64,000 nt of DNA from Acidobacteriota bacterium (GTDB lineage Bacteria; Acidobacteriota; Terriglobia; Versatilivoradales; Versatilivoraceae), in contig JAJDUG010000078.1 in assembly GCA_022826755.1 (NCBI GenBank), forward strand, positions 1 through 64,000. The letters run 5' to 3'. Both the position numbers and the translations under genes were made by a program. The notes under the pieces were generated by a model that searched no databases, was not told the origin of the DNA, and saw only the letters and a program-made list of their open reading frames with translations. This document shows, piece by piece, positions 15,510 to 35,343 of this stretch (position 1 is its first letter; every line of letters starts with the position of its first letter).

Positions 15510-15715
15510 GGCCCGATTTTTCCTGCCGGATCAGCCACCCATTATGGCCGAGCACGGCGGGAAAGAACAGTGTTGTCACTGGCTGGAGGGGGTGCTAGGC
15601 TAGGTGAAGTGCCGCCCGATTCCGCGGCAGGCTGCCGGGAAAGGGCGGATGAGGGCTGGTGCCTGGTTTCCAATGGAGCAGTCCCGGGTGGGCCGCCCGG
15701 GTGATCCGAAATCCC

Positions 15716-17980: not shown

Positions 17981-18940
17981 ATGAAGAAGACAGAGGTCCA
18001 TTCCATCGATAGAGGTGTTCTGGCCCGGGCTCAAGGGTGCCTGCTTGGCCAGCTCGCGGGGGATGCGCTTGGCAGCCTGGTGGAATTCCGGAGTGAGGAG
18101 GAGATCCTCCGGGAATATCCTGACGGAGTCCGGGATCTTGCTGACGGGGGGACTTGGAATACGATTGCCGGGCAGCCTACCGACGATTCCGAACTGGCTC
18201 TGTCGCTGGCGCGGGTTCTGGTGCGACTCGGCGGATACGACACGAGGGAAGCCCGCAAGGCCTACGTTTCCTGGCTGGACTCCGAGCCCTTCGATTGCGG
18301 GGCGACCATTCGCTCCGCTTTGCGGGGGCGCCTGAACGCAACAAGCCAGGCAAACGGCGCCATGATGCGCATCAGCCCGCTGGGGATCTTCGGTGCCCGC
18401 CACGCCCTGCCGGAGGTGGCGGAGTGGGCCCGGCAGGATGCGGCCCTCACCCATCCGAACCCGGTCTGCCGGCAGGCGAACGCCCTGTTCGCCATGGCGA
18501 TTGCCCATGCGGTCCGTTCGGCCCGCAGCGCCATGGAAGTCCACCAAGGGATCGCGGAGTGGGCCCGGCAGGGGGACGTCGATGCTTCGATTCTTGACGT
18601 CGTTGCTACGTCCGCCAGTGCTCCTCCAACGGAGTACTCCCGTCATGAAGGCTGGGTTCTCATTGCCTTCCACAACGCTCTCTGGCAGTTGCTCCATGCT
18701 TCGAACCTGGAGGAAGCCGTGGTCGATACCGTCATGAGAGGTGGGGACACCGACACCAACGCGGCCATCTGCGGAGCCTTGCTCGGGGCCGTGCACGGGC
18801 TGGAGGCCGTTCCCGACCGATGGACGGCGTGCCTTCGGAACTGTCGCCCCCTGGCTGGACAGGCTCATGTCTTCCGCCCTCGGCCCCGGCGATTCTGGCC
18901 GGTGGATGCGCTGGCGTTGGCGGAGCGGCTGATCCGGTAG
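17981..18940 (+). CDS. ADP-ribosylglycohydrolase family protein
   Basis: The 319-residue protein has the DraG/ARH family signatures: GCLLGQLAGDALGSLVEF near residue 20, the metal-binding PTDDSELAL near 68, NGAMMRISPLG near 126, and C-terminal GGDTDTNAAICGALLGAVHG near 253. The Asp/Asp-Thr residues that bind the paired magnesium ions are all present, so an active hydrolase is likely. It would remove ADP-ribose from proteins, nucleic acids or small molecules. It stands alone, next to the MazEF-like module; no ADP-ribosyltransferase partner is visible. Confidence 0.88.
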   Translation: MKKTEVHSIDRGVLARAQGCLLGQLAGDALGSLVEFRSEEEILREYPDGVRDLADGGTWNTIAGQPTDDSELALSLARVLVRLGGYDTREARKAYVSWLDSEPFDCGATIRSALRGRLNATSQANGAMMRISPLGIFGARHALPEVAEWARQDAALTHPNPVCRQANALFAMAIAHAVRSARSAMEVHQGIAEWARQGDVDASILDVVATSASAPPTEYSRHEGWVLIAFHNALWQLLHASNLEEAVVDTVMRGGDTDTNAAICGALLGAVHGLEAVPDRWTACLRNCRPLAGQAHVFRPRPRRFWPVDALALAERLIR

Positions 18941-19370: not shown

Positions 19371-22300
19371 ATGAACTCAGCCGATCCCGATAACGCCGTT
19401 GCCATCGTCGGATATGCCTACCGGATGCCGGGAGGAATTCGCACCGACGACGACTTCTGGCGTCTGCTGAGCGAGCGCGAGATCATTCGCGAGCCGGTCA
19501 CCGAACGCTACGGCAGGGGCTATCAACCCGTAGGTGGATTCTCCGGCCCGGGTCGCTTCGCCAGTCCCTACGAGGGCTTGATCCGAGAAGATGGGGAGAA
19601 GCTCTTCGACCGGAGTCTCTTCGGGCTCTCCCACAACGAAATGTTGGCCATGGACCCTCAGGTCAGGATGTTGTTGAGTTGCGCCTGGGAGACCTCCGAG
19701 CGGGCCGGCTGGGATCTTCATTACTTGCGCAACAGCCCCACCGGTGTCTTCATCGGCGCGCAGGTTCCGCCGGTCGCCAACTGGCGCTCCCTGTATGGCG
19801 CCACCCAGTTTGACGTGATCACCATCAGCCTGTCGATGCTGTCCAACCGCATCTCCTACCACTTCAACTTGATGGGACCGTCGGCCACCTACTGCACGGC
19901 GTGTTCCGCCAGCCTGACCGCCCTGCACGCTGCCATGAACGCGCTTCGCTGCGGGGACTGCGAGCAGGCCCTGGTCGGGTCCTCCAACTATCTCGGCACA
20001 GCCAGGGTGAGTGCTTCCTTCAATGCTCTGGGTGTCATCAGTCCCGACGGCCGGTGCCACTCCTTCGATGCGGAAGCCAACGGCTACATGCGCTCGGAAG
20101 GCGCCTTCGTCTTTGCGGTCAAGCCGCTGAAGGCTGCCGAAAGAGACGGCGACCGCATCCACGCCGTAGTCGAGGCGACCGCGGTCAATGCCGCCGGGGC
20201 CGCCGACGGCAGCGCCGGTCTGGCTCAAGGACGTTACATCACGGCGCCGACCCGTCATGCCCAGGTCGAACTGATGCGCAGGGCCTGTGCCCGTTCGGGA
20301 CATGCTCCCCAGGAATTCGACTACATCGAAGCCCATGCCACCGGCACCGTGGTGGGGGACCGCATTGAGGGGAACGCCATTGCAGAAGCCTACGGTGGGA
20401 ATGGCCGGGCATTTCCGCTGCGAATCGCCAGCGTCAAGAGTAATCTGGGTCACATGGAAGCCGCGGCGTTCAGTTGCGCCCTGCTCAAGGTCATCCTGAT
20501 GATGCAGCGGCGCACCTTCGCACCGATTTCGAAGAATTTTCTGGTTCCCAATCCGGAAATCGACTTTGAACGTTGCCCCATGCAGGTGCAGACGACCTGC
20601 GAGCCCTTTCCCGAGCACCCCGTGGTGGTCGGCATCAACTCCTTCGGCTTCGGCGGCGCCAATGGGCACTGCGTAGTTCGGGAATACCGTCCCTCCCGGC
20701 CGCGCATCTGGTCGGTGGCCCTGGCTCCGGAGGCCGGCTTCATGATCCCCCTGTCGGCCCGCACCTCCGGCGCGCTGGAAAGGAGTGCCGGGCAACTGCG
20801 GAAAATGCTCTGTGAGCAAGAGATGGACTTGTATGCGCTGGCCGGCAATCTGAGCCGTCGCCGTACTCATTTCGCTGCGCGAGCATCCTTTGCAGTTCGC
20901 TCCCGACAAGAATTGATCGAGGCCCTCGACGCCTTCGCGGGAGAGCCGTCGCCGGTTGCCATGGTGGAGGAGAAGGAGCGGCGACTGGCCATGGTTTTCT
21001 CCGGACAGGGTACCCAGTGGGCCGGCTGCGGCCGGTCCCTCTACGATGCCCATCCCGTGTTCCGCCGCGTCATCGATGCGATTGAGGAGCACTGGAGGGA
21101 ACACTCGGAAATCTCGTTGCGCCAAGCCTGCTTCCGGGCCGATCAATCGGCGCTGAACGAAGTCGAGTTGGCCCAGCCCGTCATCTTCATGATTCAGTGC
21201 GCCCTGGTGGATCTGTTCAAGACCTGGGGGGTCTATCCGGACTGCGTGGTGGGCCATAGTTCCGGGGAAGTCGCTGCCGCCTACGCCTGTGGAGCAATCT
21301 CGTTGGCCGATGCAACCCGGCTGGTTTTCCATCGCGCCACCCTGCAGCAGCGCACGGCCGGTTCGGGCCGCTTGCTGTCGGTCGGCCTGGATCGGCCGGG
21401 TCTGGAGGACCTGCTCGAATCGTTGCAAGTTCCCTTCAAAGCTCACCAAGGCCGAAATGGAGAGGTTGAGATCGCCTGCGAGAATGCGCCGGCCAGCACC
21501 GTCATCTGCGGCCGGGAGACCCTCCTGCTCCCCATCATGGAGGAACTGGACCGGCGCAACCTGCAGAACCGGCTCATTCCCGGAAATATCGCCTTCCACT
21601 CCAGCGCCATGGATCCGATCAGGGAGGATGCCCTGGCGGCCCTGTCGTTCCTGAACGACCGCGGCTTCGACGCCGAGGTGCCGTTTGTTTCCTCGGTCAC
21701 CGGTGAGAATACCCGGCGTCTCGACAACGCTTACTGGTGGTCGAACATTCGACAGCCGGTGCGGTTCCTGGCGGCAATGGAAACCATCATGAGGGATCAT
21801 CGGCCCGAGGTGTTGCTTGAAATCGCGCCTCACAGCTCTTTGCAACCCGTCATCGCCCAGTGCCTGGAGGGCGGCGATCCCGTGCCGGTATGCATTCCGA
21901 CGCTCATGAGAGACACCGATGTCCGCCTCGGCTTCCATCAGGCCCTGGGAGCCTTGTTCAGGGCCGGCGTGGAGCTGGACTTCGCGGCCCAGTATCCCCG
22001 GCCGGAACCCGTTGCCCATCGGCTTCCCGGCTATCCCAGAGAGGATCAGGCCACCATCGATCTGAAGTGCGATGATGAGATGTTTCTGCGGCAAGGCGGC
22101 TTTTCACAAGGCCCGTTGATTGGGCGCAAGGTTCCCTCCGACCACTTGCTCTTCGAAGCCCGGCTTTCCGACGAGGACTTTCCCTGGCTGACGGAGCACC
22201 TGGTCCATTACGCGGCCATCATGCCGGCAGCCGGTTACATTGAACTTATCCTTCAGGCGTTCGCAGGGGCCCCGATTCACATTGAGGTTCTCGAATTTCT

Positions 22301-25300
22301 TCAGCCCTGTCCCATTCCCAAGACACCGGTACGCCTGCAGACGGAATTGCGTGCACTCGCCAATGTTCCCGACGCCTACACTTTCACCATCTCCTCACGG
22401 TCCTATGAGGTCGAAGCCGGCAGCGAGCTGCATTGCCGCGGCAAAGTGCGCCTTCTCAAGGACGATCAGGCGGTGGAGGTCCCGGCCCGCCTGGAAGAGA
22501 TCGACACCACCCGCTTCGAACGTTCGGTGATTGCCGACGAGAGTGATTGTTACGAACGCTTTGAGGCGGCGCTCAGCGAGACCTTTCAATATGGTCCCCA
22601 TTTCAGAACCATGAAGCGGGTCCGGATGGATATGTCGACCCGGGCTTATCTTGTCGACGTGGAAATGGACGAGAGACTGTGGAGGACCGGACGGGAGGAA
22701 GGGTATGTCGCCTCGGTCCCGATCCTCGACGGGGGACTGCAGATATTCCTTTACAACCTGATGCTGGGCGCCGATCACTTTGCCATACCCCAGCGTGCCG
22801 AACGGGTGACGTTTCTTCGTCCTCCGACCTCGCCGCGGATCACGGTTCACGTGACCAAGCCTGCCGACGGTTGGTACCGTGTGAACGAAATGGGCCAGTA
22901 TTGTGTGCATTACGGGGAAACGACCGGTGGCAGCGTCAGTTTTTATGACAACCAGACCGGGGAACTCATCGCGCACATCCGCGATTACATCTCCTTCGTA
23001 TCCAATCCTCGCTGGGGCGACTTGCCGCGCAGCAAGCACAGGATCTCGTGGCAACCGAAGATTCTCCCGGTCGGGCAGTCGCTCCTGGACCGGCTGCCCC
23101 ATGGCGAGATTGATCCTCCTGCGCTCATTGCAGCCCTGGAACAGTCCGAACAGGGCCAACGCTACGCTTGTCATATCGTCGAGTTTGCCGGTGGCCGCAA
23201 ACCCGATCAGACGATCCTCACACAGTGCATCGACCATCTCTCCAGTTCGGGTGGGCCCTCGGAGTTCTGGATGGTCAGCGACAGCGAGGAGACCTCCCGC
23301 GCCCACTACGAGGCCTTCCACCGCCAGCCGGCTGCGCTGCGGTTCGAAACTCTGGACCCATCCCTGCAAGCGGATCTGCGGAAAGGCCTGTTGCGTCCGG
23401 GGGCTGCCGAGATCATTTTTCTGCATTGGGATGATGGGCCCTTCGAGCCGGAGCGTTGGCGGTTTCTACTGAGAGTGGCGGTTGCCGGTGGTCTGGCCCT
23501 GGTCTGTCACGACGAGGGCGACCTCATCGAGCCGGGCGAAGGCTGGATGATGGTGCGTTCGGGACGGCGCACGACCCTGCTGCAGGCGAGGCTGTCCCGG
23601 TCGGTTTCCTCCGACAAAGTAAGTCTCTCCGGCCCCCGGTGGGTGCTGGGCGAGCCCCATAGCCGGGCAGCCGAGTGGGTGTCCCTGCTGGATGCGCCCG
23701 GGGTGCGCCTGATTCCTCCGGAGATTCTTCGCGATGGCAATTACGAGACACTGGAAGAGTGGCCGCAAGTGACCGACCTGCAAGCGATCGACTTCTTCTG
23801 CGGGACCGACCCCGACGATCCGACAGGCGAAAGAGCATCGGCGCAACTCATTGCCTTTGTCAGGGCTCTGGTTTCCCACAGGCTTGAGCACGGACATCAG
23901 CCCTGCCGCTTGACCGTGGTGACGAATCTGGCCGCGTTCCAGGTGGAGGAGCCGCGGGGGAGTGCCCTGTGGGGAGCGGCTCGGAGCATGGCTCTCGAAG
24001 TCGGCGAGGAAGTCGGGATCGATTTTCGGCTGGTGGACTTGGGCGGTCCCGAGGACCTCGAGGCTTTGGCCGGTCTCGCACGGTGCGACTTGCGCGAGCG
24101 GGAACTGGCCGTGCGGCGGAATCGCTTGTGGGCGCCGCGACTGGTCAGTATTCGAGAGAGATATCCGTTGGTGCCCGCGGGGGAAGATCCCGCTCAACGC
24201 CTCACCCTGGAGAGCCCTGGCCAGATTTCCGGTCTGGAAATGAAGACCTACCCACTCCCGGGGTTGGGGGCGGACGACGTGGAAATCGAGGTGGCGGCCG
24301 CGGCACTCAACTTCCGCGACATTATGGTCACGCTGGGATTGTTGCCGGCATTGGCCTACGAGCGCTCGGCCCTGGGACGCGAAGTCGGCATCGAGGCCTG
24401 CGGAATCGTACGCCGCGTCGGGTCGAAGGTGCGCCACTTTCGCGCCGGCGATGCGGTGGTGTTCACCCAAGGCGGTTGTGTCGCCAATCGCGTTGTGGTC
24501 AACCAACATCTGGTGTTCGGAAAGCCGGATCGCTTGAGCATGGAAGAGGCCGCGTCAGTATTGTCGGTCTATGTCACCGCCTACTACTCCCTGATTCACC
24601 TGGCTCGTCTGCGCAAGGGACAACGCGTTCTCATCCACTCGGCCATGGGCGGAGTCGGGCAGGCGGCCATCGCCCTGGCAAAACACGTGGGCGCGGAGAT
24701 TTACGCCACGGCCGGCAGTCGGAGCAAGCGCGAGAAATTGCTGGGGTTGGGAGCACGGGCGGCCTTCGATTCGCACAGCTTCGATTGGTACGACGGATTG
24801 ATGGAAGCCACCGGTGGCCAGGGTATCGACGTGGTCTTGAATTCCCTGGCCGGCCGCCACATCGAATTGTGTCTGCAGGCCCTTCGCCCGGGCGGTTGGC
24901 ACTGCGAGATCGGCAAGGTCGACATCTATGCCGACAACGAGCTCGGCCTGCGTATCTTCCGCAAGAACCTGCGCTTCGCGGCCATCGACGTGGACCGCCT
25001 GATGGTCGACGACCCCTATCTCTCGCACCGGCTCTCACAAGCCTGCCTGGATCTGCTGGGTGAAGGGGCGTTACCGGCGCTGCCGGTCACCGTCTTTCCC
25101 TACAAGGACTTCGCCAGCGCCCTTCGCTTGATGACAACCGGTCAACACCAGGGGAAACTGGTGCTGAAGGCTCCCGAAACTCCGGCCGCTGCCGGTTTCT
25201 CGGTTGCCGACGTGCGGCCGTTTCTCGATCCCGATGCCACCTATCTGGTGACCGGTGGTCTGGGGGGCTTCGGGCTGCGGGTGCTGCCTTACCTGGCGGC

Positions 25301-26411
25301 TGCAGGCGCCCGCCATATCACCCTGATGGACCGGGACCCCGAACGCCGTCGGACTGCCGACTGGGTCCGTCAGTCAAGCGCTCTGGTCTACATGGATGAG
25401 AGGGTGGAGTTCGACATCGTTCAGGGAGACGTGTCGGTGGAAGAGGATGTCCGACGCTGTATCGCCCAGTTGCAACGACCGCTCAAAGGCGTGTTTCACC
25501 TGGCCGGGGTGCTGGACGACCATTTGTTGGTCGACATGTCGAACCAGTCCGTGGCCAAGGTATTCGCTCCCAAGGCCTCCGGCGCCCTCCACCTGCACCG
25601 GGCCACCGAAGGCTGCCCACTCGATTACTTCGTTCTGTTTTCCTCCACTGCCTCGGTGTTGGGCAACCCTGGACAGGTCAACTACAGCGCGGCCAACTCT
25701 TTCCTGGACGGTTTGGCTGCCTGTCGCCGTCGCCAGGGCCTTCCCGGTCTGTCCTACAACCTGGCCGCCGTTTCCGACGCCGGCATGGCCGCGCGCAGTT
25801 TGCCCGTGCTGCGAATGATGAGGGCCGCGGGCATACCGCCGGTGAGCAGCCAGTTCGCCGCGTCCAACCTGGACCACGCCCTGCGTACCATGTCTGAAAA
25901 CGACCACTTGATCACGGCCCTGTTCGAAGGCCCGACCTGGACGGTGGACCTTCCCGATTACATGCGGCTCGGGCGTCTGATGCAGAATCAGGATGCCTTT
26001 GAGGTCGGTGAGGCCGGAGAGCTTACTGTCGACAGCGTAGTGGCTCAGATTGCCGCCAAGGTGGCCGATCTCTGCGGCCACGACGAGGGCGGCGTGGAGG
26101 AACCCCTGTCCAGCTTCGGGCTGACCTCGATCTCGGTTGCCGAGTTGGGAACCTTCATCCAGACCCAGTTCAACTACCGGGTGAGCGCTCTGGAACTGAT
26201 GACCACGGCCTCTACTCTCTCGTTGGCCCGGGACATCCTGCTTGGGAAGGAGAATGTCGAGGAGGTCCAGGACGAGACGGAGGCGGTCGGAGCCAAGGAG
26301 GCCGGCCTGGTAGGCTCTAAACGGGTCCGCCGCGCACCGTCGGTTTTTGCCAGTCCACTGGATGACCACTTTCCGCAAGGTGTCGGAGATTTGTCGGGCG
26401 CCGCCGAATAA
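19371..26411 (+). CDS. Highly reducing type I polyketide synthase, single module
   Basis: The 2346-residue multidomain enzyme reads, in order: KS (residues ~1-430; Cys177 in TACSAS, His in EAHATGT and in SNLGHMEAA), AT (~540-850; FSGQGTQWAG and GHSSGE), DH (~915-1200; His943 in WLTEHLVHY, Asp in DGGLQ near 1120), a structural psi-KR (~1230-1590), ER (~1615-1930; HSAMGGVGQAA), KR (~1950-2130; GGLGGFG and NYSAANSF) and one ACP (~2215-2285; Ser in FGLTSIS). There is no thioesterase, loading module or methyltransferase. One module with a full reducing loop suggests iterative synthesis of a reduced chain on the ACP. The DH motif has Tyr where the HxxxGxxxxP glycine is expected. It heads an operon with the radical SAM and reductase-sulfotransferase genes. 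Confidence 0.92.
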   Translation: MNSADPDNAVAIVGYAYRMPGGIRTDDDFWRLLSEREIIREPVTERYGRGYQPVGGFSGPGRFASPYEGLIREDGEKLFDRSLFGLSHNEMLAMDPQVRMLLSCAWETSERAGWDLHYLRNSPTGVFIGAQVPPVANWRSLYGATQFDVITISLSMLSNRISYHFNLMGPSATYCTACSASLTALHAAMNALRCGDCEQALVGSSNYLGTARVSASFNALGVISPDGRCHSFDAEANGYMRSEGAFVFAVKPLKAAERDGDRIHAVVEATAVNAAGAADGSAGLAQGRYITAPTRHAQVELMRRACARSGHAPQEFDYIEAHATGTVVGDRIEGNAIAEAYGGNGRAFPLRIASVKSNLGHMEAAAFSCALLKVILMMQRRTFAPISKNFLVPNPEIDFERCPMQVQTTCEPFPEHPVVVGINSFGFGGANGHCVVREYRPSRPRIWSVALAPEAGFMIPLSARTSGALERSAGQLRKMLCEQEMDLYALAGNLSRRRTHFAARASFAVRSRQELIEALDAFAGEPSPVAMVEEKERRLAMVFSGQGTQWAGCGRSLYDAHPVFRRVIDAIEEHWREHSEISLRQACFRADQSALNEVELAQPVIFMIQCALVDLFKTWGVYPDCVVGHSSGEVAAAYACGAISLADATRLVFHRATLQQRTAGSGRLLSVGLDRPGLEDLLESLQVPFKAHQGRNGEVEIACENAPASTVICGRETLLLPIMEELDRRNLQNRLIPGNIAFHSSAMDPIREDALAALSFLNDRGFDAEVPFVSSVTGENTRRLDNAYWWSNIRQPVRFLAAMETIMRDHRPEVLLEIAPHSSLQPVIAQCLEGGDPVPVCIPTLMRDTDVRLGFHQALGALFRAGVELDFAAQYPRPEPVAHRLPGYPREDQATIDLKCDDEMFLRQGGFSQGPLIGRKVPSDHLLFEARLSDEDFPWLTEHLVHYAAIMPAAGYIELILQAFAGAPIHIEVLEFLQPCPIPKTPVRLQTELRALANVPDAYTFTISSRSYEVEAGSELHCRGKVRLLKDDQAVEVPARLEEIDTTRFERSVIADESDCYERFEAALSETFQYGPHFRTMKRVRMDMSTRAYLVDVEMDERLWRTGREEGYVASVPILDGGLQIFLYNLMLGADHFAIPQRAERVTFLRPPTSPRITVHVTKPADGWYRVNEMGQYCVHYGETTGGSVSFYDNQTGELIAHIRDYISFVSNPRWGDLPRSKHRISWQPKILPVGQSLLDRLPHGEIDPPALIAALEQSEQGQRYACHIVEFAGGRKPDQTILTQCIDHLSSSGGPSEFWMVSDSEETSRAHYEAFHRQPAALRFETLDPSLQADLRKGLLRPGAAEIIFLHWDDGPFEPERWRFLLRVAVAGGLALVCHDEGDLIEPGEGWMMVRSGRRTTLLQARLSRSVSSDKVSLSGPRWVLGEPHSRAAEWVSLLDAPGVRLIPPEILRDGNYETLEEWPQVTDLQAIDFFCGTDPDDPTGERASAQLIAFVRALVSHRLEHGHQPCRLTVVTNLAAFQVEEPRGSALWGAARSMALEVGEEVGIDFRLVDLGGPEDLEALAGLARCDLRERELAVRRNRLWAPRLVSIRERYPLVPAGEDPAQRLTLESPGQISGLEMKTYPLPGLGADDVEIEVAAAALNFRDIMVTLGLLPALAYERSALGREVGIEACGIVRRVGSKVRHFRAGDAVVFTQGGCVANRVVVNQHLVFGKPDRLSMEEAASVLSVYVTAYYSLIHLARLRKGQRVLIHSAMGGVGQAAIALAKHVGAEIYATAGSRSKREKLLGLGARAAFDSHSFDWYDGLMEATGGQGIDVVLNSLAGRHIELCLQALRPGGWHCEIGKVDIYADNELGLRIFRKNLRFAAIDVDRLMVDDPYLSHRLSQACLDLLGEGALPALPVTVFPYKDFASALRLMTTGQHQGKLVLKAPETPAAAGFSVADVRPFLDPDATYLVTGGLGGFGLRVLPYLAAAGARHITLMDRDPERRRTADWVRQSSALVYMDERVEFDIVQGDVSVEEDVRRCIAQLQRPLKGVFHLAGVLDDHLLVDMSNQSVAKVFAPKASGALHLHRATEGCPLDYFVLFSSTASVLGNPGQVNYSAANSFLDGLAACRRRQGLPGLSYNLAAVSDAGMAARSLPVLRMMRAAGIPPVSSQFAASNLDHALRTMSENDHLITALFEGPTWTVDLPDYMRLGRLMQNQDAFEVGEAGELTVDSVVAQIAAKVADLCGHDEGGVEEPLSSFGLTSISVAELGTFIQTQFNYRVSALELMTTASTLSLARDILLGKENVEEVQDETEAVGAKEAGLVGSKRVRRAPSVFASPLDDHFPQGVGDLSGAAE

Positions 26412-26458
26412 GAGACCATCCACCGACTGCAAAGAAAAATTCGGAATGGAAGGCGGCC

Positions 26459-28177
26459 ATGCCTCACGCGCTTCTGGTATATCCCGAACACCCCCCTGCC
26501 TACTGGGGAGCCAAGTATGCTCTGGAATTGCTCGGTATACAGGCAGCCTTCCCCCCTCTGGGCCTGCTCACCGTCGCCGCCATGTTTCCACCAGGATACG
26601 ACCTCCGCGTGGTGGATATGAATGTGACTCCCTTGCAGGAGGCGGACCTGGAGTGGGCCGACCTGGTGTTTACATCCACCATGATTGTTCAGCGAGCCTC
26701 CCTGCAGGCAGTGACCGAGCGCTGCAATCGGGCCGGCATTCCGGCGGTGGCCGGAGGCCCCTTTCCCACGTCGTATCACGAGGAGATCGAAGGCGTGGAC
26801 CATTTCGTGCTGGACGAGGTGGAGGAAACCTTTTCCGGATTTCTGCGCGACCTGGAGACCGGCACGGCCAAAGCCATTTATCGGGAGCCGCGAAAACCGG
26901 ATGTGAGCCGGACGCCCCTCCCGCGTTTCGACCTCATCGATACCAACGCCTATCACTCCATGTGCGTGCAGTTCTCCCGAGGATGTCCGTTCGACTGTGA
27001 ATTCTGTGACATTATCAAGCTCTTCGGGCGCGTGCCCCGGACCAAGTCACCCGAGCAGATGATCCGGGAATTCGATTTCCTGTATCGATTGGGATGGCGA
27101 GGCCCCCTGTTCCTGGTTGACGACAACTTCATCGGCAACAAGCGAGAGGCGTTGGAGCTGCTGCCGGTGGTCGCCGAGTGGCAGAAAGCCCGTGGCTACC
27201 CGTTCTCCCTGTTCACCGAGGCGAGCGTGAATCTGGCCCGAACGGATGAACTGATGGATGCCATGATCGAGGCCGGGTTCAATTCGGTGTTCCTGGGCAT
27301 TGAAACCCCCAACCCCAGGGCCTTGCTCAAGACCAAGAAGCCACAAAACGTCGGCAAAAAGGAAGAGGATTATCTCCTCCATGCCGTGCGCAAGATCCAA
27401 CACAAGGGGATGCAGGTCACGGGAGGCTTCATTCTGGGTCTGGATGAAGATGACGAGGGTGTGTTTGACGAGCAGATCGACTTTATCCAGCGGGCCGGCA
27501 TTCCCATGGCGCCGATCTATATGCTGGTTGCTCTAAAGGGCACGGATCTCTATGAGCGCCTGAAAAGGGAGGACCGCCTGCTGGACGCACCCATCGAAAT
27601 CGACGCCACCAGCTTGAACTTCAAGCCGGGGATGAATCCCAGGACATTGGTCGAGGGATACCGGCGCGTGATCAGTACCATTTACGACTCCACCCTCGAG
27701 AATTACTTCAAGCGTTGCCTGACCTTGTTCGAACACCTCAGGCCCGTCCCGCACCTGCAAAAATCCAGGAGCAAGAGTGCGCTGTTTGTGGAACTCATGG
27801 GTGTGCGGAACCGACTCTCCTCCCGGCAACTCCCGGCCTACAACAAGTTCGTTGCCAAGGTCTCCAGGGACCATCCCCGAATGCTACCTGAGGCGATTCG
27901 CCTGGCCGCCCTGGGCTACCACTTCGAAAAGGTCACCCGCCAGCAGATTGCGATCAACGAGTTCAAGAAGTTTGTAACGGCCGAGTTGGAGGAGGTCAAG
28001 GAAGCGTCCTCGCACCGCGCCAGGGCAGTGGAAGCAGTCGGGGAACGGAAGCAAGCGTTGCTGACGCGAGTTCATGAGCGCTATCGATCGATACCCGCTG
28101 ACTTTCGTTACCAGGGAGACGGCGTCGAGCATGCGTTGGCGAGTTTCCGATCCGCCGTGAATGAGCAGGTCGACTGA
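26459..28177 (+). CDS. Cobalamin-binding radical SAM enzyme (DUF4070/HpnP-like)
   Basis: The 572-residue protein has an N-terminal cobalamin-binding-like domain (residues ~1-150, including AAFPPLGLLTVAAMFPPGY), then a radical SAM core with the CxxxCxxC cluster motif CPFDCEFC (Cys176, 180, 183) and a C-terminal DUF4070-type region (PIYMLVALKGTDLYERL). Its nearest characterised relatives that I know are hopanoid and bacteriochlorophyll C-methylases and other class B methyltransferases. It could methylate, or otherwise modify, an unreactive carbon of the polyketide chain. It lies 47 bases after the PKS with GGAAGG before its ATG and 64 bases before the reductase-sulfotransferase gene. The substrate is inferred only from context. 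Confidence 0.88.
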   Translation: MPHALLVYPEHPPAYWGAKYALELLGIQAAFPPLGLLTVAAMFPPGYDLRVVDMNVTPLQEADLEWADLVFTSTMIVQRASLQAVTERCNRAGIPAVAGGPFPTSYHEEIEGVDHFVLDEVEETFSGFLRDLETGTAKAIYREPRKPDVSRTPLPRFDLIDTNAYHSMCVQFSRGCPFDCEFCDIIKLFGRVPRTKSPEQMIREFDFLYRLGWRGPLFLVDDNFIGNKREALELLPVVAEWQKARGYPFSLFTEASVNLARTDELMDAMIEAGFNSVFLGIETPNPRALLKTKKPQNVGKKEEDYLLHAVRKIQHKGMQVTGGFILGLDEDDEGVFDEQIDFIQRAGIPMAPIYMLVALKGTDLYERLKREDRLLDAPIEIDATSLNFKPGMNPRTLVEGYRRVISTIYDSTLENYFKRCLTLFEHLRPVPHLQKSRSKSALFVELMGVRNRLSSRQLPAYNKFVAKVSRDHPRMLPEAIRLAALGYHFEKVTRQQIAINEFKKFVTAELEEVKEASSHRARAVEAVGERKQALLTRVHERYRSIPADFRYQGDGVEHALASFRSAVNEQVD

Positions 28178-28241
28178 CGCGCGCACTCGGTGGCGACGTA
28201 GAGTGCCGCGCCCAATTTGCCCTGTTCCAAGGAAGGAGCAT

Positions 28242-30758
28242 ATGACCGAAAGAACCGACGCCGACACGACGGTGGAGCCGATCGTCGGGACTCTGCCCCC
28301 GCATTGCCAGAGAGACGTCGAAACACTGCGGCGATTCATTCATGCCTCCGTCAGTCAGGAGAGGCCGGCCGATCCCGTGTCTCCGGCTGATTTTCGAGAG
28401 GTCCTGCTGACCGGAGCCACCGGATTTATCGGTCGTTTCCTGCTGCGCGACCTGTTGCGGCAGAAGCCGGATCTGGTCGTGCACTGCCTGGTCCGGGCCG
28501 ACGATGCCGCGGGTGGGTACCAGCGCCTGTGCGCTGCCCTCCAAGAAGCTGAAATCTGGGATGAGTCGTTCGCCTCGCGCATCCGAGCGGTGGCGGGAGA
28601 TCTCGGCCAAGCCCGATTCGGGCTGGGGGAAGGAGAATTCAACGACCTATGCCGGCGGATCGACGCCGTATACCATCTGGCTGCCTCCATCAGTCTCGCG
28701 ACCTCCTACATGGCCATCCGCGAGCTCAATACGCTCAGCCTCCGGAATGTGCTCGAATTGTGTTTGCGGCAACGCTTCAAGCACCTGTTCTACGCTTCGA
28801 CCATGGCCGTGTTCCCGCAGTACTTTTTTGCCTTCGCCCGCGAATTCAAGGGCAGCCGCATCGACCACCAGATGCAGCCGGACCTGGCAACCATGAAGAA
28901 GAAGTACCCCATCGGATTGCTTGGTTATCCCTGGAGCAAATTGACCGCTGAACAGATCCTGCTTTTTGCCCGGCAAGCCGGACTGCCGTTGGCGATTTTC
29001 CGGCTGCCTCAAACCGCCGTGTCCGGCATGGGAATCGTCCAACCGAGCGATCTCACGATGAAGATACTGGCCGCGGTGGTCGATTCCGAAACCATGCCCG
29101 CGGGATTCTCCTTTCGATCCAACCACGAGGCGGTCGATACTTTGAGTCGAGCCTGTACGGCCATTTCCCTGAATCCCGAACGGCGGTTCACCATCTACCA
29201 TTGCTGCAACCCTCAGTTGGACTACTACAACCTGGAACTCGCCGACTTTGGAGTCTATTTCCCGGAAGTTCCCTACGAGTCGTTCAAGCAGTCCTGCCAG
29301 GCCCGTGGCGAGGATTCGATACTGCACGGTCACTGGGCCGTGCTCGATCATTTTGGCAAATACTGGTTCAGCAACGACAAGCCTGCGGGTCGGCTGCCCA
29401 TGAGTGACCGTGCCTTCCGCGAGGACTGCCCGCACCCGATCAAGTGGCCGAGCGTGTTGACCAAGCTCAGGCGTTCCTATCAACGGGGGCAAGAGAATCG
29501 CCGAAATTGGCCCTATCCCTCGTCCCATGGCCGACTCGACTTTGAAGGCTTGATGTCGCGGGCTGAACACTATGCCGAGGATTGCAAGGTCTCCTTCGAA
29601 CAGGCCTATCCCGAATGGATGCGTCGCAATCTGCAACAATTGGTTCTGGGATTCAAGGCGTCCGATGCCAATCTGCTGGAGAACAAGGTGGTTGATATCG
29701 TCTTCGACCTCAGCCGTCTCTTGATGATCAATGCCGGGTTCGCCCGCGAAAGACAGCAGTACAGGGAGATCGAACAGGAGGAGATCACGTGCCCGGTCTT
29801 TATTGTCGGGATCAATCGCACGGGTACGACCTATCTGCATCGGCTGTTGGCCCGTGACCCGCGGTTTTGGGCGCCGCGGGGCTACGAGTACACCGCGCCG
29901 CGTCTGTCACGGGATGAATACGCCACGATTGCGCTTACGCCGGAAGACCCACGTCGGGCGTGGGTCGAGGAGATGATCGACTCATCCGATATCAACGAGC
30001 TGTTCAAAGGGGTTCACGACTTCAATGTGGACGAACCGACGGAGGATTTCCCGCTATTGAGCATGGCCTTCGGATCATGGACCGCGACCGTTCGGTTCCA
30101 TGTCCCGGAGTTCGGCCGTTGGCTGGATGCCACCGGTGTGCGGCATGCCTACGCCCATCACCGCCGCACCATGCAGAACCTCAGTTGGCAGCGTCGGCAG
30201 CGCCATCCTCGCCAGGTGGGGCAGTGGCTGTTCAAGATGCCCTTTCATCTCATGGAGTTGGAGGCCCTCGTCCGGACCTATCCCGATGCCCTCTTCATCC
30301 AGACCCATCGGAGCCCGACTCGATTCATGGGTTCCTGGAACAGCTTTGTGGAAAGGGCCCGCTCGCTTGTCTACGAGCCACAGCCACGAGAGATCCTCGG
30401 CGCCGAGCAGTTGGCGTTCATGACCGGCATGGTGGACAGGGGTGTTCGATTCCGGGAAGCCCACCCCGAGCTGGAGCACCGCTGGATGGACGTGAACTAC
30501 GTGGACCTGGTGGAGGATCCGATGGCCGTGGTCCATCAAATCTATGAACGGTTCAACTGGCCGCTCAAGCAGGGGGCGATCACCGCCATGGACGACTGGC
30601 TGAACCGGCAGGGACAGCGCCGGCGCAAGGAACCACGGCACCGCTACCGCCTGGGGGACTACGGTCTGACGTCGGAGGAGGTCAACGACGCCTTTGCAGG
30701 TTATCGCGCCTTTCTGACCCGCAGGTCCATTCGGAATTCCGGCCTGCAACGCTACTGA
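28242..30758 (+). CDS. Thioester reductase-sulfotransferase fusion protein
   Basis: The 838-residue protein joins two enzymes. Residues ~50-380 are a thioester-reductase-like short-chain dehydrogenase (NAD_binding_4/male-sterility type) with the cofactor loop LLTGATGFIGRFLL and catalytic Ser/Thr (YASTMAVF) and Tyr229-x3-Lys233 (YPWSK). A linker follows, and residues ~515-800 are a sulfotransferase with the PAPS 5'-phosphosulfate loop FIVGINRTGTTYLHRLL and the 3'-phosphate motif QTHRSPTRFMGSW. The first part could reductively release the polyketide from the ACP as aldehyde or alcohol; the second could sulfate a hydroxyl. The ATG at 28242 follows AAGGAG by five bases; an upstream in-frame ATG overlaps the previous gene. 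It ends the operon. Confidence 0.88.
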   Translation: MTERTDADTTVEPIVGTLPPHCQRDVETLRRFIHASVSQERPADPVSPADFREVLLTGATGFIGRFLLRDLLRQKPDLVVHCLVRADDAAGGYQRLCAALQEAEIWDESFASRIRAVAGDLGQARFGLGEGEFNDLCRRIDAVYHLAASISLATSYMAIRELNTLSLRNVLELCLRQRFKHLFYASTMAVFPQYFFAFAREFKGSRIDHQMQPDLATMKKKYPIGLLGYPWSKLTAEQILLFARQAGLPLAIFRLPQTAVSGMGIVQPSDLTMKILAAVVDSETMPAGFSFRSNHEAVDTLSRACTAISLNPERRFTIYHCCNPQLDYYNLELADFGVYFPEVPYESFKQSCQARGEDSILHGHWAVLDHFGKYWFSNDKPAGRLPMSDRAFREDCPHPIKWPSVLTKLRRSYQRGQENRRNWPYPSSHGRLDFEGLMSRAEHYAEDCKVSFEQAYPEWMRRNLQQLVLGFKASDANLLENKVVDIVFDLSRLLMINAGFARERQQYREIEQEEITCPVFIVGINRTGTTYLHRLLARDPRFWAPRGYEYTAPRLSRDEYATIALTPEDPRRAWVEEMIDSSDINELFKGVHDFNVDEPTEDFPLLSMAFGSWTATVRFHVPEFGRWLDATGVRHAYAHHRRTMQNLSWQRRQRHPRQVGQWLFKMPFHLMELEALVRTYPDALFIQTHRSPTRFMGSWNSFVERARSLVYEPQPREILGAEQLAFMTGMVDRGVRFREAHPELEHRWMDVNYVDLVEDPMAVVHQIYERFNWPLKQGAITAMDDWLNRQGQRRRKEPRHRYRLGDYGLTSEEVNDAFAGYRAFLTRRSIRNSGLQRY

Positions 30759-30845
30759 GCCCGACTGGATTGGCTTACGGGGGCAAAGGCTGTGCCGGCC
30801 GGGTCTTCGTTCCGGCAGGCTACCTCGCTTCGGCCGCCAGGGCCG

Positions 30846-31496
30846 TCATTTTTCCGCTTTTGCAACAACGTCTTCGAGCACTGTTTCGGCGGATTTGAAC
30901 ATTTCCGTCAGAAGCTGCTTGCGCCGGGTCTTCAAACGTTCGACATACAGCCACAGGGCGTTGGTGATTCCGGCAACCACCGCCTCCCGGGTCGTGAGCG
31001 GGAGAGTGCGGTCATTCTGGTATTCGTATTTCTCAATGGTGAAGTTGGTGATGTGCTGGATGTTCTCTCCGACGATATCGAAATCGACGGAGCTGCGAAG
31101 CGGAATGGTCTTGCCCGCCTGTGCTGCTTCCTCCTCGTCGCCGACGTCGGCCTTCCCGGTGATGGCTTCGATGGCCGCACTCTGCGAATCGTAAATCGAC
31201 ATGATCCCATGAAAGCCGCTGACGGTGACAATCTCGCGGATCGAATCGGAGAGGTTGCAGATACCGAAGGCCTTGCCTTCCGGGTTGAATTTCTTGGCGA
31301 TGATCAGGCAGACGCGAAGGCCTGCGCTGCTGATGTAGCCCAATTGCCCGAAGTCCAGGATCATGGCCCGTTCATCGGGATCGATTCCGGCTTCCAAGAC
31401 ATTCTGGACTTCAATGTAGTTGTTCCCGTCGATACGACCGATCGGCGCAGCGATCAGAATGCCTTCTCTACGGCTCCACTTGACTTGGGCTGGCAT
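30846..31496 (-). CDS. STAS-domain regulator (anti-sigma-factor antagonist-like)
   Basis: The 216-residue protein has an N-terminal STAS domain (residues ~8-115) with the phosphorylatable serine motif YISSAGLRV (Ser56/57), as in SpoIIAA-type antagonists. A second, mostly helical region follows after residue 125 (NDRTLPLTTREAVVAGITNALW). Similar two-part proteins occur in cyanobacteria (Slr1659-like). It lies between the polyketide operon and the MFS gene, on the opposite strand, and shares a divergent promoter region with the MFS gene. A role in controlling the cluster is an inference from position. No partner kinase or phosphatase is present in the window. Confidence 0.8.
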   Translation of the reverse strand: MPAQVKWSRREGILIAAPIGRIDGNNYIEVQNVLEAGIDPDERAMILDFGQLGYISSAGLRVCLIIAKKFNPEGKAFGICNLSDSIREIVTVSGFHGIMSIYDSQSAAIEAITGKADVGDEEEAAQAGKTIPLRSSVDFDIVGENIQHITNFTIEKYEYQNDRTLPLTTREAVVAGITNALWLYVERLKTRRKQLLTEMFKSAETVLEDVVAKAEK

Positions 31497-31679
31497 GGCG
31501 TTACTCCTTTCAGGTCAGACATCCGGAAAAACCTGTGCATCATAGCATGATACGTGGCGGATGCGGTCGTATTGGGTTGCCGTGCGGCGTGTTTCTGTAG
31601 ACACCGCGAAGTTTGTTCACGGAATTGCAACAGCCCGAGGTCGCCACTTGAGCCGGATCGACAAACGTGAGCGAGGACG

Positions 31680-33308
31680 ATGCCATTGAACCCGGACTCG
31701 ATCCGCCGGAGGAGAGCCGCCACCGATCCATCGGCGGCGGGAGGCTCCCTGCAACTTTCCGGAAGACAGCTCTTGCTGGCCATGACCGGCGTGATGACGG
31801 CCATGTTTCTGGCTGCCGTGAGTCAGATCAATATCGCCACCGCAATGCCTCGCATCCTGGCCGACCTGGGCGGGTTCGACCGCTACGCCTGGGCTGCGAC
31901 CGCATACCTGGTTGCCTCCACCGTTGCGATTCCCATCGCGGGCAGACTGGCCGATCTGTTCGGACGCAGGCTGTTCTTCATCCTGGGCCTGGCGATCTTC
32001 ATGATCGGCTCGGTCGCGGCGGGTTTGAGCCAGTCGATGAACCAGCTCATCGCTTCCCGCGCCATCATGGGCATCGGTGGCGGCACTCTCATGACCAACA
32101 GTATCGCCGCCGTCGCAGACCTGTTCCCAGCGGGAGAACGGGGCAGGTACATGGGGTTGATCGGTCTTGTCTTCGGCCTGTCTTCGGTGATCGGGCCGCC
32201 GGTGGCCGGTTTGATCACCGACACCTTGTCCTGGAACTGGGTCTTTCTGCTGAACGTTCCGGCCGGAATCCCGGTGTTGCTGTTGATCGTTCGGGCTTTC
32301 CCAGGGATCGCTCCCGCTGGCGGGAAGCGCAAGCTGGACTACCCGGGAATGGCCGCCCTGACACTGGCGGTGGCCTGCCTGATGATCGCGCTCTCCCTCG
32401 GAGGCGTTCACTACCGGTGGAGTTCGCTTCAGGTCGGCGGACTCCTGGGTTTCGGATTGGCGATGGCCGTGATCTTCCTGGTGATCGAGTCCAGGTCCGA
32501 CTCTCCCATCATGCCCCTGGAAATTTACAGAAACCGGGCGGTGGCGGTTTCCGTGATGGTCACCCTGCTGACCGGATTCGGATTGCACAGCACGGCGCTC
32601 TTGATCCTGCTCTACTTCCAGGGGGTGGCGGGCTCAACCGCGACCGGCAGCGGCGGCCTGCTGACCCCCATGATGCTTGCAATGGTATTCGGGGCCATCG
32701 TGTCCGGGAGACGGCTCTCCGGAATCGGAGGGAACTACCGGAGGCAGGCCCTGATTTCCTCGGGAGCCATGGCAGTGGGCATCTTTCTCCTCTCCACCAT
32801 GAACGAGAATACGAGTCTTGCCCGGGCGGTGGCCTACGTTTCGCTTGCGGGGCTGGGACTGGGCGGCGCCATGTCCACCTCCAACCTGGCCGTCCAGAAC
32901 TCGGTCCCCCTCCGGCTGGTTGGCAGCGCCACCGCCGCGATTCAGTTCTCCAGGTTGTTCAGCGGCACGCTGGGTCTGGCCGTGTTGGGGGTCGTGTTGG
33001 CGGTGAGCTTCTCATCCAGGTTGGAGGAAACCCTCCCGGAATCCGTCAGGGCCGGGCTTGCCCAAGGGCAGTTCGAGGCCGTCAGGCAGAACCCGCGGGC
33101 GCTTGTCGATCCCTCGGCGATCGAGGCGCTGAGAACCGGCTTCGAGGAGAGGGGGCTGGACGGCATTCGGATGGCGGACAGGTTGCTCGGCGCACTCAGG
33201 TCGGCGCTGGTCGGGGGATTGGGAGATGCCTTCACGCTGAGCGCGCTGGTGGTGGCACTTTCGTTCCTCGCCGCACTGTTCCTGAGAGTCGAGCAGCGGA
33301 GAGGCTGA
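31680..33308 (+). CDS. MFS transporter, DHA2 (EmrB/QacA) type
   Basis: The 542-residue protein has about 14 membrane segments and the DHA2 signatures: AVSQINIATAMPRI in TM1, GRLADLFGRR between TM2 and TM3, and SRAIMGIGGG in TM4, with motif C-like GPPVAGLITD in TM5. Proteins of this group export hydrophobic or amphipathic compounds in exchange for protons. It reads in the same direction as the polyketide genes, from its own start beyond the STAS gene, and is a fair candidate exporter for their product. The C-terminal extracellular loop (~residues 440-510) is long and charged. Confidence 0.88.
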   Translation: MPLNPDSIRRRRAATDPSAAGGSLQLSGRQLLLAMTGVMTAMFLAAVSQINIATAMPRILADLGGFDRYAWAATAYLVASTVAIPIAGRLADLFGRRLFFILGLAIFMIGSVAAGLSQSMNQLIASRAIMGIGGGTLMTNSIAAVADLFPAGERGRYMGLIGLVFGLSSVIGPPVAGLITDTLSWNWVFLLNVPAGIPVLLLIVRAFPGIAPAGGKRKLDYPGMAALTLAVACLMIALSLGGVHYRWSSLQVGGLLGFGLAMAVIFLVIESRSDSPIMPLEIYRNRAVAVSVMVTLLTGFGLHSTALLILLYFQGVAGSTATGSGGLLTPMMLAMVFGAIVSGRRLSGIGGNYRRQALISSGAMAVGIFLLSTMNENTSLARAVAYVSLAGLGLGGAMSTSNLAVQNSVPLRLVGSATAAIQFSRLFSGTLGLAVLGVVLAVSFSSRLEETLPESVRAGLAQGQFEAVRQNPRALVDPSAIEALRTGFEERGLDGIRMADRLLGALRSALVGGLGDAFTLSALVVALSFLAALFLRVEQRRG

Positions 33309-33457: not shown

Positions 33458-34150
33458 TCAGTTGGACGACTCGAACTGCGCCACGTGAAGGCGGATATAG
33501 GTCCTGGTTCCCTTGAGCGCCTCGTTGGCCTGGGCCAGGTCCCAGGGCGTCTTGCCCTCGGCATTCCGAGCATTGGCGTCGGCTCCGGCCTCCAGCAGCA
33601 GGTCGATCACGGCTGGAACCCTGCCGCTTGCAGCGGACTGATGCAGGGGTGTGCGGCCGGCGTTATCCCGGGCCTCCAGGTTCGCCCCAGCCTCGATCAG
33701 CACCCTCGTCACTGCCGGGTTCGGGTTTGCCCGGGCGGCATCGTGCAGTGGCGTGTTGCCGGACTTGTTGCGCACGTTCGGATCGGCTCCGGCGGCAAGA
33801 AGCGCCTCGATGACCGCCGGATTCCGGTTGCCCCAGGCCGCCAATACCAGCGGGGTATTGCCGTTCCTGCTCCGGGCATCCGGTTTTGCTCCGGCCGCCA
33901 GCAGCGTTTTGACCACCGCAGGATTCTTGCTGTTCCAGGCCGCCAAGTGCAGAGGCGTGCGGCCGGCTTCCGTCTGGGCTCCGACGTCGGCGCCGGCATC
34001 CAGACAGGAGGTTACCTCCTCGACGGTTGCTTTCAGGAAATACTCCCGCGTGTTCCACTGTTCGCAGGCCGGGTCCGGCTGAGCTGCAAGAGTGGAAGCA
34101 AGCAGCAACAGCGCAAACCGGCTGCCGCCGGAAACGAGCTTGAATGTCAT
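33458..34150 (-). CDS. Secreted ankyrin-repeat protein
   Basis: The 230-residue protein has a signal peptide (MTFKLVSGGSRFALLLLASTLAAQ) and five ankyrin repeats of about 33 residues (TEAGRTPLHLAAWNSKNPAVVKTLLAAGAKPDARS and relatives). Ankyrin repeats bind other proteins; the signal peptide places this one outside the cytoplasm. The start at 34150 is fixed by a strong GGAGGGG ribosome site eight bases upstream; the longer frame from 34270 lacks one. Partner unknown. It is divergent from the Cache protein gene, with about 190 bases between them. Confidence 0.87.
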   Translation of the reverse strand: MTFKLVSGGSRFALLLLASTLAAQPDPACEQWNTREYFLKATVEEVTSCLDAGADVGAQTEAGRTPLHLAAWNSKNPAVVKTLLAAGAKPDARSRNGNTPLVLAAWGNRNPAVIEALLAAGADPNVRNKSGNTPLHDAARANPNPAVTRVLIEAGANLEARDNAGRTPLHQSAASGRVPAVIDLLLEAGADANARNAEGKTPWDLAQANEALKGTRTYIRLHVAQFESSN

Positions 34151-34338
34151 GGCATTACCCCTCCTGTAAAATACTGCTGGTAAGGAAGTTGATCCGTTCC
34201 GACCGGGACAGCCGGCGCTCACGCAGTCTACCACCAAACCGCCGGAGTTTGAAGGCATCCGGCAACCCATGGAGAAATTTGGGGCGTGATGGATCTTAGT
34301 GGGTGTACGGCTTAATCGCGATGCGGTAAACTACGGGC

Positions 34339-35343
34339 ATGAAAAAACCGCATTGTCGTTCCATTTTTATTCCCATGCTTCTCTCCCTGGTCTCTCCGGC
34401 CCTGGCTACCGAGGATACGTGTGCCGACCGCTCCATCGTGGCCGGCGCCGTCCGGACGTTGCAGGACGCCAAGACTCTGACCCAGTGCGCCTACGAGTTT
34501 GTCCAGGAGGTGGGCTTCGAGGAGGCCCGCAGGGCCTTCAACGAGGAGGAGCGCTGGAAGAGCGGCCCGACCTATGTCTTCGTCTCCGAGGTCACGCCGT
34601 TGAGCGACCAGGCCCGGCTGTTCGCCTTTCCGCCCGCTCGGGAAAGGGAAGGGGGCTCTCTGGGCCTGCTGATCGATGTCTACGGCAACGACTACTACAA
34701 GGAACAGCACCGCATCGCCAGCGGGTTCGGCGAGGGCTTCATCTATTACTCCTTCCTCAACCCGGAGACAGGCAGGGACGAGCCCAAGGCCACCTACATC
34801 AAGAGCATCGACTGGCAGGGGAACTCGGCAGCGATCGGGGTGGGGGTCTACCGGCGCGACCTGCCCGGCACCTGCCGGAGCGAGGAGGTCAGCGCCTCCA
34901 TGCTCGACTCGGAGCCTTCCGAGGCGCGGCTGCAGGAGTTCGTCCGCTGCGCCGCCATGGAGTTGGATTCCATGGGGTATTTCGCCACGGTCAGCCTGGC
35001 CAACGATCCCCGCTGGAAGAGCGGCTCCATCTACCTGTTCGGACTGGACACCTACGGCTACACCTTCTTCAGCGGCTCTCCGATGGATTCCCGGATCGGT
35101 TCGGAGCTGTCCTCCGACACCATCGGGGGCTTCGGGGGCCGGAATGTTCTGGGGGTAGCCGATGCCTTCGGCGAGTCCTTCCTCTACTACTCCAACCGGA
35201 ATCCGGCCACCGGCCAGTGGCAACGCAAAGTGACCTTCGTCAAGAGGGTCACCTCCTTCGGGGTTCCGGTGCTGATCGGCGCAGGCTATTACCTGGATTC
35301 AAGCCAACCGGACGAAGTCGCGCCGGCGGCAGGGTCGCAGTAA
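34339..35343 (+). CDS. Secreted protein with two tandem Cache-like domains
   Basis: The 334-residue protein has a signal peptide (FIPMLLSLVSPALA) and two similar halves. Each contains RWKSG...Y(V/L)F followed by a glycine-rich GEGFIYYSFLNPETG or GESFLYYSNRNPATG motif, then a predicted beta-strand ending in IGVGVYR or IGAGYYL. This is the fold pattern of single-Cache ligand-binding domains, which normally form the sensor part of chemoreceptors or kinases. Here there is no membrane segment or signalling domain after them, so it may be a free periplasmic ligand binder. The ligand is unknown. Confidence 0.75.
   Translation: MKKPHCRSIFIPMLLSLVSPALATEDTCADRSIVAGAVRTLQDAKTLTQCAYEFVQEVGFEEARRAFNEEERWKSGPTYVFVSEVTPLSDQARLFAFPPAREREGGSLGLLIDVYGNDYYKEQHRIASGFGEGFIYYSFLNPETGRDEPKATYIKSIDWQGNSAAIGVGVYRRDLPGTCRSEEVSASMLDSEPSEARLQEFVRCAAMELDSMGYFATVSLANDPRWKSGSIYLFGLDTYGYTFFSGSPMDSRIGSELSSDTIGGFGGRNVLGVADAFGESFLYYSNRNPATGQWQRKVTFVKRVTSFGVPVLIGAGYYLDSSQPDEVAPAAGSQ

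Follow-up and report, generated by a model that had tools for sequence, protein, structure and literature searches.

The swf cluster was described from Plakortis simplex, as PS11G3 and PSA11D7 (Della Sala et al. 2013, PMC3908369). It comprises swfA, encoding a polyketide synthase (PKS) of 2349 amino acids (aa) with the domains ketosynthase (KS), acyltransferase (AT), dehydratase (DH), enoylreductase (ER), ketoreductase (KR) and acyl carrier protein (ACP); swfB, encoding an 839-aa fusion of a thioester reductase (R) and a sulfotransferase (ST); and swfC, encoding a B12-binding radical S-adenosylmethionine (SAM) protein. In the same work POR_0547-0550 of the Aplysina ("poribacterial") symbiont was re-read as swf, and SwfC was found to cluster with HpnP, its nearest characterised enzyme, and with other radical SAM methyltransferases (PMC3908369). 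Swf-like clusters have since been reported, independently of taxonomy, in Nitrospirota, Latescibacterota and Acidobacteriota (2022, PMC9426513), as well as in Thalassonella (2023, PMC10227082); a search of the literature on alkyl sulfates in sponge symbionts rendered nothing on swf beyond these three papers. Here we analyse a stretch of 64,000 nucleotides (the window) from contig JAJDUG010000078.1 of a 4.6-Mb assembly (GCA_022826755.1), whose host is a Versatilivorator-like acidobacterium (genus Candidatus Versatilivorator) that is taken to be associated with sponges. Judging from motifs, domain architecture, protein sizes, gene content and gene order, the core of this locus is the swf cluster already described in 2013, in the order swfA-swfC-swfB (Table 1).

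All published signatures of SwfA are found in the protein of the window, namely DPQVR (residue 95), HATGT (322), FSGQGTQW (543), QCALVDL (609), GHSSG (628) and IAFH (740). The pair DPQ[IV]R plus HATGT is the one that marks a swf KS, and QCALVDL is one residue off QCALVEL, a motif whose last residues are allowed to vary (PMC3908369). The predicted proteins SwfA, SwfB and SwfC have 2346, 838 and 572 aa, as compared to 2349, 839 and 585 in the published clusters, so that both the single KS-AT-DH-ER-KR-ACP protein of ca. 2350 aa and the R-ST fusion of ca. 839 aa are present. They are joined by a B12-binding radical SAM protein with the CX3CX2C motif, which is optional in swf, PSA11D7 being without it. 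A preliminary description of this DNA, made from the sequence alone, had placed the PKS gene, the radical SAM gene 47 bases on, the reductase-sulfotransferase gene 64 bases on, the opposite-strand STAS gene and the pump of the major facilitator superfamily (MFS) correctly to the base. The 64-base gap holds with the most likely swfB start, 28242, the ATG to which the homologue starts align, the longest ORF opening at 28161. Pfam also bears out its single-module, fully reducing PKS, in which neither a thioesterase nor a methyltransferase domain was found. Its statement that the combination could not be matched to a characterised pathway does not hold, given the motifs and gene content of swfA-swfC-swfB (PMC3908369).

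The sup cluster was the first hypothesis. SupA is likewise a mono-modular, taxonomy-independent PKS of sponge symbionts accompanied by a related permease (SupE), but the KS of the window has DPQVR and HATGT and lacks DPQQR and HGTGT, the motifs at which the sup PCR primers are aimed, and the R-ST protein defines swf; sup was thus ruled out. A capsule PKS of the WcbR/RkpA type was also discarded, as DPQQR/HGTGT is not intact and no capsule genes were found among the adjacent genes scanned (14619-35343).

Distribution of the core genes and the SwfA-SwfB fusion

When 84,980 genomes were scanned with a SwfB alignment, 37 loci (L049-L085, of which L084 and L085 are partial) were found to encode the R-ST protein, carried by Latescibacterota, Nitrospirota, Acidobacteriota, Gemmatimonadota, Rhodothermales, Rhodobacteraceae and Gammaproteobacteria; more distant SwfB proteins (45-49%) were found in Williamsia, Saprospiraceae, a second Rhodothermales and Arenicellales. 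The sets of related metagenome-assembled genomes (MAGs) are taken to be sponge-derived, judging from their names and the swf papers. In nearly all loci whose contig extends far enough swfA directly adjoins swfB, and the conserved gene order extends over loci whose names place them in more than five phyla. SwfC is encoded in most loci, being absent from L053, L061, L070, L074, L077-L080 and L082, and its gene lies between swfA and swfB, before swfA (L083) or after swfB (L075). The three core genes stand together, and in one order, in most related loci, which is far beyond chance; a lack of such joint conservation would have counted against the preliminary description. No relatives were found on viral contigs, and no record of the plasmid collection holds most of SwfB, so that a plasmid vehicle is unsupported by that collection. 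An all-against-all clustering of ORFs was dominated by shadow ORFs, and only families coinciding with real genes were used.

In L077, L078 and L080, relatives that include Williamsia and Saprospiraceae MAGs, SwfA and SwfB form one ORF of 3179-3198 aa with the order KS-AT-DH-ER-KR-ACP-R-ST. Because the two proteins can thus be a single polypeptide, the R domain most likely acts on the ACP of SwfA itself, and the ST domain on the product of R. The fusion is the best evidence in this analysis for a reductive release followed by sulfation.

That these genes are a degraded or chance neighbourhood without joint function is hardly credible, and is refuted by their conservation. Frameshifts of swfA in several related MAGs and the decay seen in two relatives (G001 and L085) would speak for it, but the ORFs of the window are intact, the order is kept across phyla as described above, the frameshifts lie in homopolymers, and the three core genes show, against congeners L039, L042 and L043, a ratio of nonsynonymous to synonymous substitutions (dN/dS) of 0.15-0.27 (0.18-0.20 for swfA and 0.24-0.27 for swfB), which indicates that they are maintained under purifying selection.

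The frameshifts of swfA were located in four related MAGs (L050:2900-3080, L075:4680-4860, L058:4240-4440 and L063:2540-2700), always in G or C homopolymers, and the break in L058 (at residue ca. 1117) is close to the published split between POR_0547 and POR_0548 (residues ca. 1105-1108). A programmed frameshift was considered, since the breaks of L050 and L075 coincide (residue ca. 620); it was rejected, as each of these two lies in a poly-G run with one base surplus to the frame, and those of L058 and L063 are in other homopolymers. The likelier origin is assembly error or slippage, and phase variation may also be among the readings.

Proposed chemistry of the pathway

We consider it likely that the product is a methyl-branched alkyl sulfate, made as a saturated chain that would be methylated by SwfC, reduced to the alcohol and sulfated. 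SwfA would work iteratively, probably with malonyl-CoA, assembling on its own ACP an acyl chain that is reduced for the most part: the AT motif IAFH, read after PMC3908369, suggests malonyl-CoA, and together with the full reducing set it leads us to expect an iterative saturated chain. SwfC, as a B12-dependent radical SAM enzyme, would probably add one or more methyl groups to unactivated carbons of the chain. The R domain of SwfB would take the chain off the ACP, converting the thioester to the aldehyde and then to the alcohol, which the ST domain would sulfate with 3'-phosphoadenosine 5'-phosphosulfate (PAPS). The long-chain product would be exported perhaps via the adjacent MFS pump, and the STAS protein would be the regulator of the cluster. 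The outline given in the preliminary description, namely an iterative reduced chain with radical modification, reductive release and a sulfate ester, agrees with the proposal of 2013 (PMC3908369) and is strengthened by the SwfA-SwfB fusions. As for the supply of cofactors, an adenosine 5'-phosphosulfate (APS) kinase domain, which would provide PAPS, is present in the genome, as are two ACPS-family proteins, the second of which is a 277-aa frame, the size expected of an Sfp-type phosphopantetheinyl transferase (PPTase), located in another PKS region; the AcpS of Escherichia coli was found not to activate the ACP of SwfA (PMC3908369). The genome has two further large PKS ORFs, L132:3429-13715 (G000:C2) and G000:C12:2557-11058, the former with two KS domains and a C-methyltransferase-type domain and, close by, a PPTase-sized gene of the ACPS family.

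Several observations weigh against this proposal. For a malonyl-specific AT the motif GHSSGE is unusual (PMC3908369), the KR and ER domains may not be active in every cycle, so that saturation of the chain may be incomplete, many complete swfA-swfB loci are without SwfC, and the AlphaFold model of SwfC is poor (predicted local distance difference test, pLDDT, 60) and too weak for a fold search. Moreover, the published expression of swf in E. coli yielded no new compound (PMC3908369).

The identity of SwfC as a C-methyltransferase acting on the chain is probable, given its family and the optional, copy-number-variable presence of its gene; its absence from many complete loci indicates that methylation would be optional. 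On plasmids, the closest relatives of SwfC are B12-binding radical SAM proteins with 35-42% identity, one of them annotated as a methyltransferase, and HpnJ, HpnR and a ladderane-type protein are among its neighbours in NCBIfam. A second B12-radical SAM-DUF4070 protein of the genome (L131:4698-6455, on G000:C8) adjoins a mandelate racemase/enolase-type gene. The varied lipid chemistry of B12 radical SAM proteins, of which the NCBIfam neighbours are examples, and the presence of other lipid-type clusters in sponge symbionts (PMC9426513) would fit a membrane building block, that is, a branched alcohol or sulfated headgroup precursor for which the radical SAM enzyme couples or rearranges chains without methylating them. 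We hold this to be unlikely, as the conserved core has no glycerol- or headgroup-transferase gene, a terminal sulfate would block further coupling at that end, and a pathway so readily gained, lost and swapped would be odd for core membrane lipids.

With regard to release, the best relatives of the R domain in the PDB include the R domain of MxaA and a type I PKS chain, and its Rossmann loop and YxxxK motif are intact and invariant in the genus. These features argue against an R domain that is redox-inactive or stops at the aldehyde, with the ST domain sulfating another hydroxyl such as a leftover beta-hydroxyl. Such an outcome is conceivable, since R domains of both the two- and the four-electron type are known and an iterative PKS may run some cycles with KR alone (PMC3908369), but we regard it as quite unlikely. 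The ST domain has as PDB relatives two sulfotransferase-family chains, 2zq5 and 2z6v. Domains of the same broad family sulfate a hydroxyl as a leaving group in curacin A biosynthesis (discussed in PMC3908369), and an elimination like that of CurM and the olefin synthases would give an alkene or another non-sulfated lipid. This termination expects a thioesterase after ST; Pfam found no such domain in any of the three core proteins, the locus has no thioesterase or decarboxylase domain, R precedes ST in one protein, nothing follows R-ST in the fused forms, and the alcohol that R would produce lacks the beta-carboxylate by which elimination is driven. Loss of the sulfate in this way is accordingly very improbable, and a retained terminal sulfate is the reading that we favour.

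Exchange of the core within the genus and accessory genes

The flanks of the core, made up of the STAS, MFS, ankyrin and Cache genes, are syntenic in the genus, with 80-95% DNA identity, whereas the core has only 64-83% identity to L040-L043, and synonymous divergence (dS) to L042 is 0.8-1.1 for the core versus 0.39-0.44 for the flanks. In the SwfB tree the window and L055 group with Latescibacterota (support 100/98), L059 and L068 stand elsewhere, and L062 and L043 are near the base. Forcing the genus together costs 252 log units for SwfB (approximately unbiased test, p 4e-6) and 467 log units for SwfA (under a simpler model, with long branches outside the genus). Since the core is not monophyletic in the genus although its flanks are syntenic, it was exchanged in place; and since the neighbours of the window differ between SwfA and SwfB, the core itself is mosaic. 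The copy number of swfC varies between 0, 1 and 2: most swf-bearing congeners carry two radical SAM copies (in tandem in three of them) and the window a single one, which groups with that of Latescibacterota L049 (100/97) and not with copy 1 or 2 of the congeners. The single copy is therefore a different cassette and did not arise by deletion of a duplicate. The contig of L049 is short and possibly misbinned; those that carry L050 and L051 measure 2.5 and 6.3 Mb. In one lineage of the genus (L044, in G001, and L085:7648-8840) swfA, swfC and the MFS gene are lost, and a broken swfB remnant stands beside an intact STAS gene.

The C-terminal extension of the STAS protein, for which two long helices are predicted (model pLDDT 76, moderate confidence), has no Pfam match, and it is found in exactly the same three of 199 Acidobacteriota genomes as SwfB, two of which belong to one genus, so that these are ca. 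two independent cases. In Latescibacterota, Nitrospirota and Gemmatimonadota the STAS gene is directly upstream of swfA, where it is frequently split into two ORFs or represented by its C-terminal part only, and in G146 it is convergent and downstream of swfB, as in the window. Such ORFs (ORF15, 18, 19 and POR_0546) were listed but not counted in the operon in PMC3908369; on the basis of this linkage, we regard the STAS gene as a linked fourth component of swf, whose product would regulate the cluster. The MFS gene, conserved in the genus and with a relative of 41-42% identity adjoining swfB in Latescibacterota L049 and L050, is likely an accessory of the locus that is not universal.

Table 1 Features of the swf locus, in positions of the window
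Feature	Positions	Strand	Basis
swfA, KS-AT-DH-ER-KR-ACP PKS, 2346 aa	19371-26411	+	Pfam/NCBIfam, swf motifs, dN/dS
SwfA KS, ca. aa 8-436; TACS active site, HATGT, NLGH	19392-20678	+	Domain search, motifs
SwfA AT, aa 542-868	20994-21974	+	Domain search, motifs
SwfA DH region, aa 915-1158; HxxxYxxxxP at H943, DGGLQ at 1120	22113-22844	+	Domain search, motifs
SwfA ER, aa 1633-1932; HSAMGGVG	24267-25166	+	Domain search, motif
SwfA KR, aa 1956-2135; TGGLGGFG, FSSTAS, YSAAN	25236-25775	+	Domain search, motifs
SwfA ACP, single, aa 2226-2284; phosphopantetheine Ser in GLTSI	26046-26222	+	Domain search, motif
swfC, B12-binding + Radical_SAM + DUF4070, 572 aa; CxxxCxxC at aa 176-183	26459-28177	+	Pfam/NCBIfam, motif
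swfB, thioester reductase-sulfotransferase fusion, 838 aa	28242-30758	+	NAD_binding_4 and Sulfotransfer_3; start from homologues; dN/dS
SwfB R; GATGFIG Rossmann loop, YPWSK (YxxxK)	28407-29126	+	Domain search, motifs; PDB relatives
SwfB ST; GINRTGTT 5'-phosphosulfate loop, HRSPTRFMGS 3'-phosphate motif (usual PAPS contacts)	29793-30566	+	Domain search, motifs
Terminator-like hairpin between convergent swfB and STAS genes, weak	30831-30845	+	Terminator scan; count not above chance
STAS (anti-anti-sigma type) protein, 216 aa, helical C-terminal extension	30846-31496	-	Pfam/NCBIfam
DHA2/EmrB-type MFS exporter	31680-33308	+	Pfam/NCBIfam

A promoter scan of the locus found nothing, and terminator-like sites (14) are not in excess of those in shuffled sequences (11.0 +/- 3.2); no such site lies on the + strand in either core gap. 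Genes for an ankyrin-repeat protein (33458-34270, - strand) and a Cache-domain protein (34339-35343, + strand) are syntenic beside swf throughout the genus; ankyrin-repeat proteins are frequent in sponge symbionts. Just 5' of swfA lies an ADP-ribosylglycohydrolase gene (17981-18940, + strand), with no match in G001, nor in G004 within 2.1 kb 5' of swfA, and the peptidyl-prolyl isomerase (PPIase) gene (15659-16747) adjoins the swfB remnant in G001.

Significance and comparison with known systems

Sponge metagenomes are dominated by two PKS families, of which swf is one. Its clusters are carried by many unrelated sponge bacteria and probably direct the synthesis of a fatty chain with methyl branches and a terminal sulfate. 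The fusions and the variable copy number of swfC predict that the alkyl sulfates would differ in methyl branching among cluster variants, and the exchange of the core in place within one genus shows the pathway to behave as a function that the sponge community holds in common and can swap, rather than as a lineage trait. It is possible, and we propose it only tentatively, that swf is a symbiosis trait swapped as a whole cassette across the phyla of sponge bacteria, the alkyl sulfates serving as shared surfactant- or signal-like lipids of the holobiont, with the optional SwfC setting their branching and the dedicated STAS protein exerting control.

This kind of cluster was already known, the new details being the swfA-swfB fusion, the STAS linkage and the in-place exchange of the core. 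With PS11G3, PSA11D7 and POR_0547-0550 the locus shares the three proteins, their domain order and the signature motifs, and its genes are ordered as in the POR copy; PS11G3, too, is accompanied by anti-anti-sigma ORFs and a SupE-like permease. It differs in its host organism, in the two swfC copies of its congeners, and in having one convergent 216-aa STAS protein downstream, whereas published swf has two short ORFs upstream of swfA. B12-binding, radical SAM and DUF4070 domains are all present in the SwfC of the window, an architecture that HpnP may share; HpnP acts on hopanoids, while SwfC sits with a PKS. The coccidian type I fatty acid synthases, likened here by their published description (as cited in PMC3908369), also have R followed by ST at the end of the synthase, as in the fused forms of L077, L078 and L080, but they are multimodular protist proteins and SwfA is a mono-modular bacterial one.

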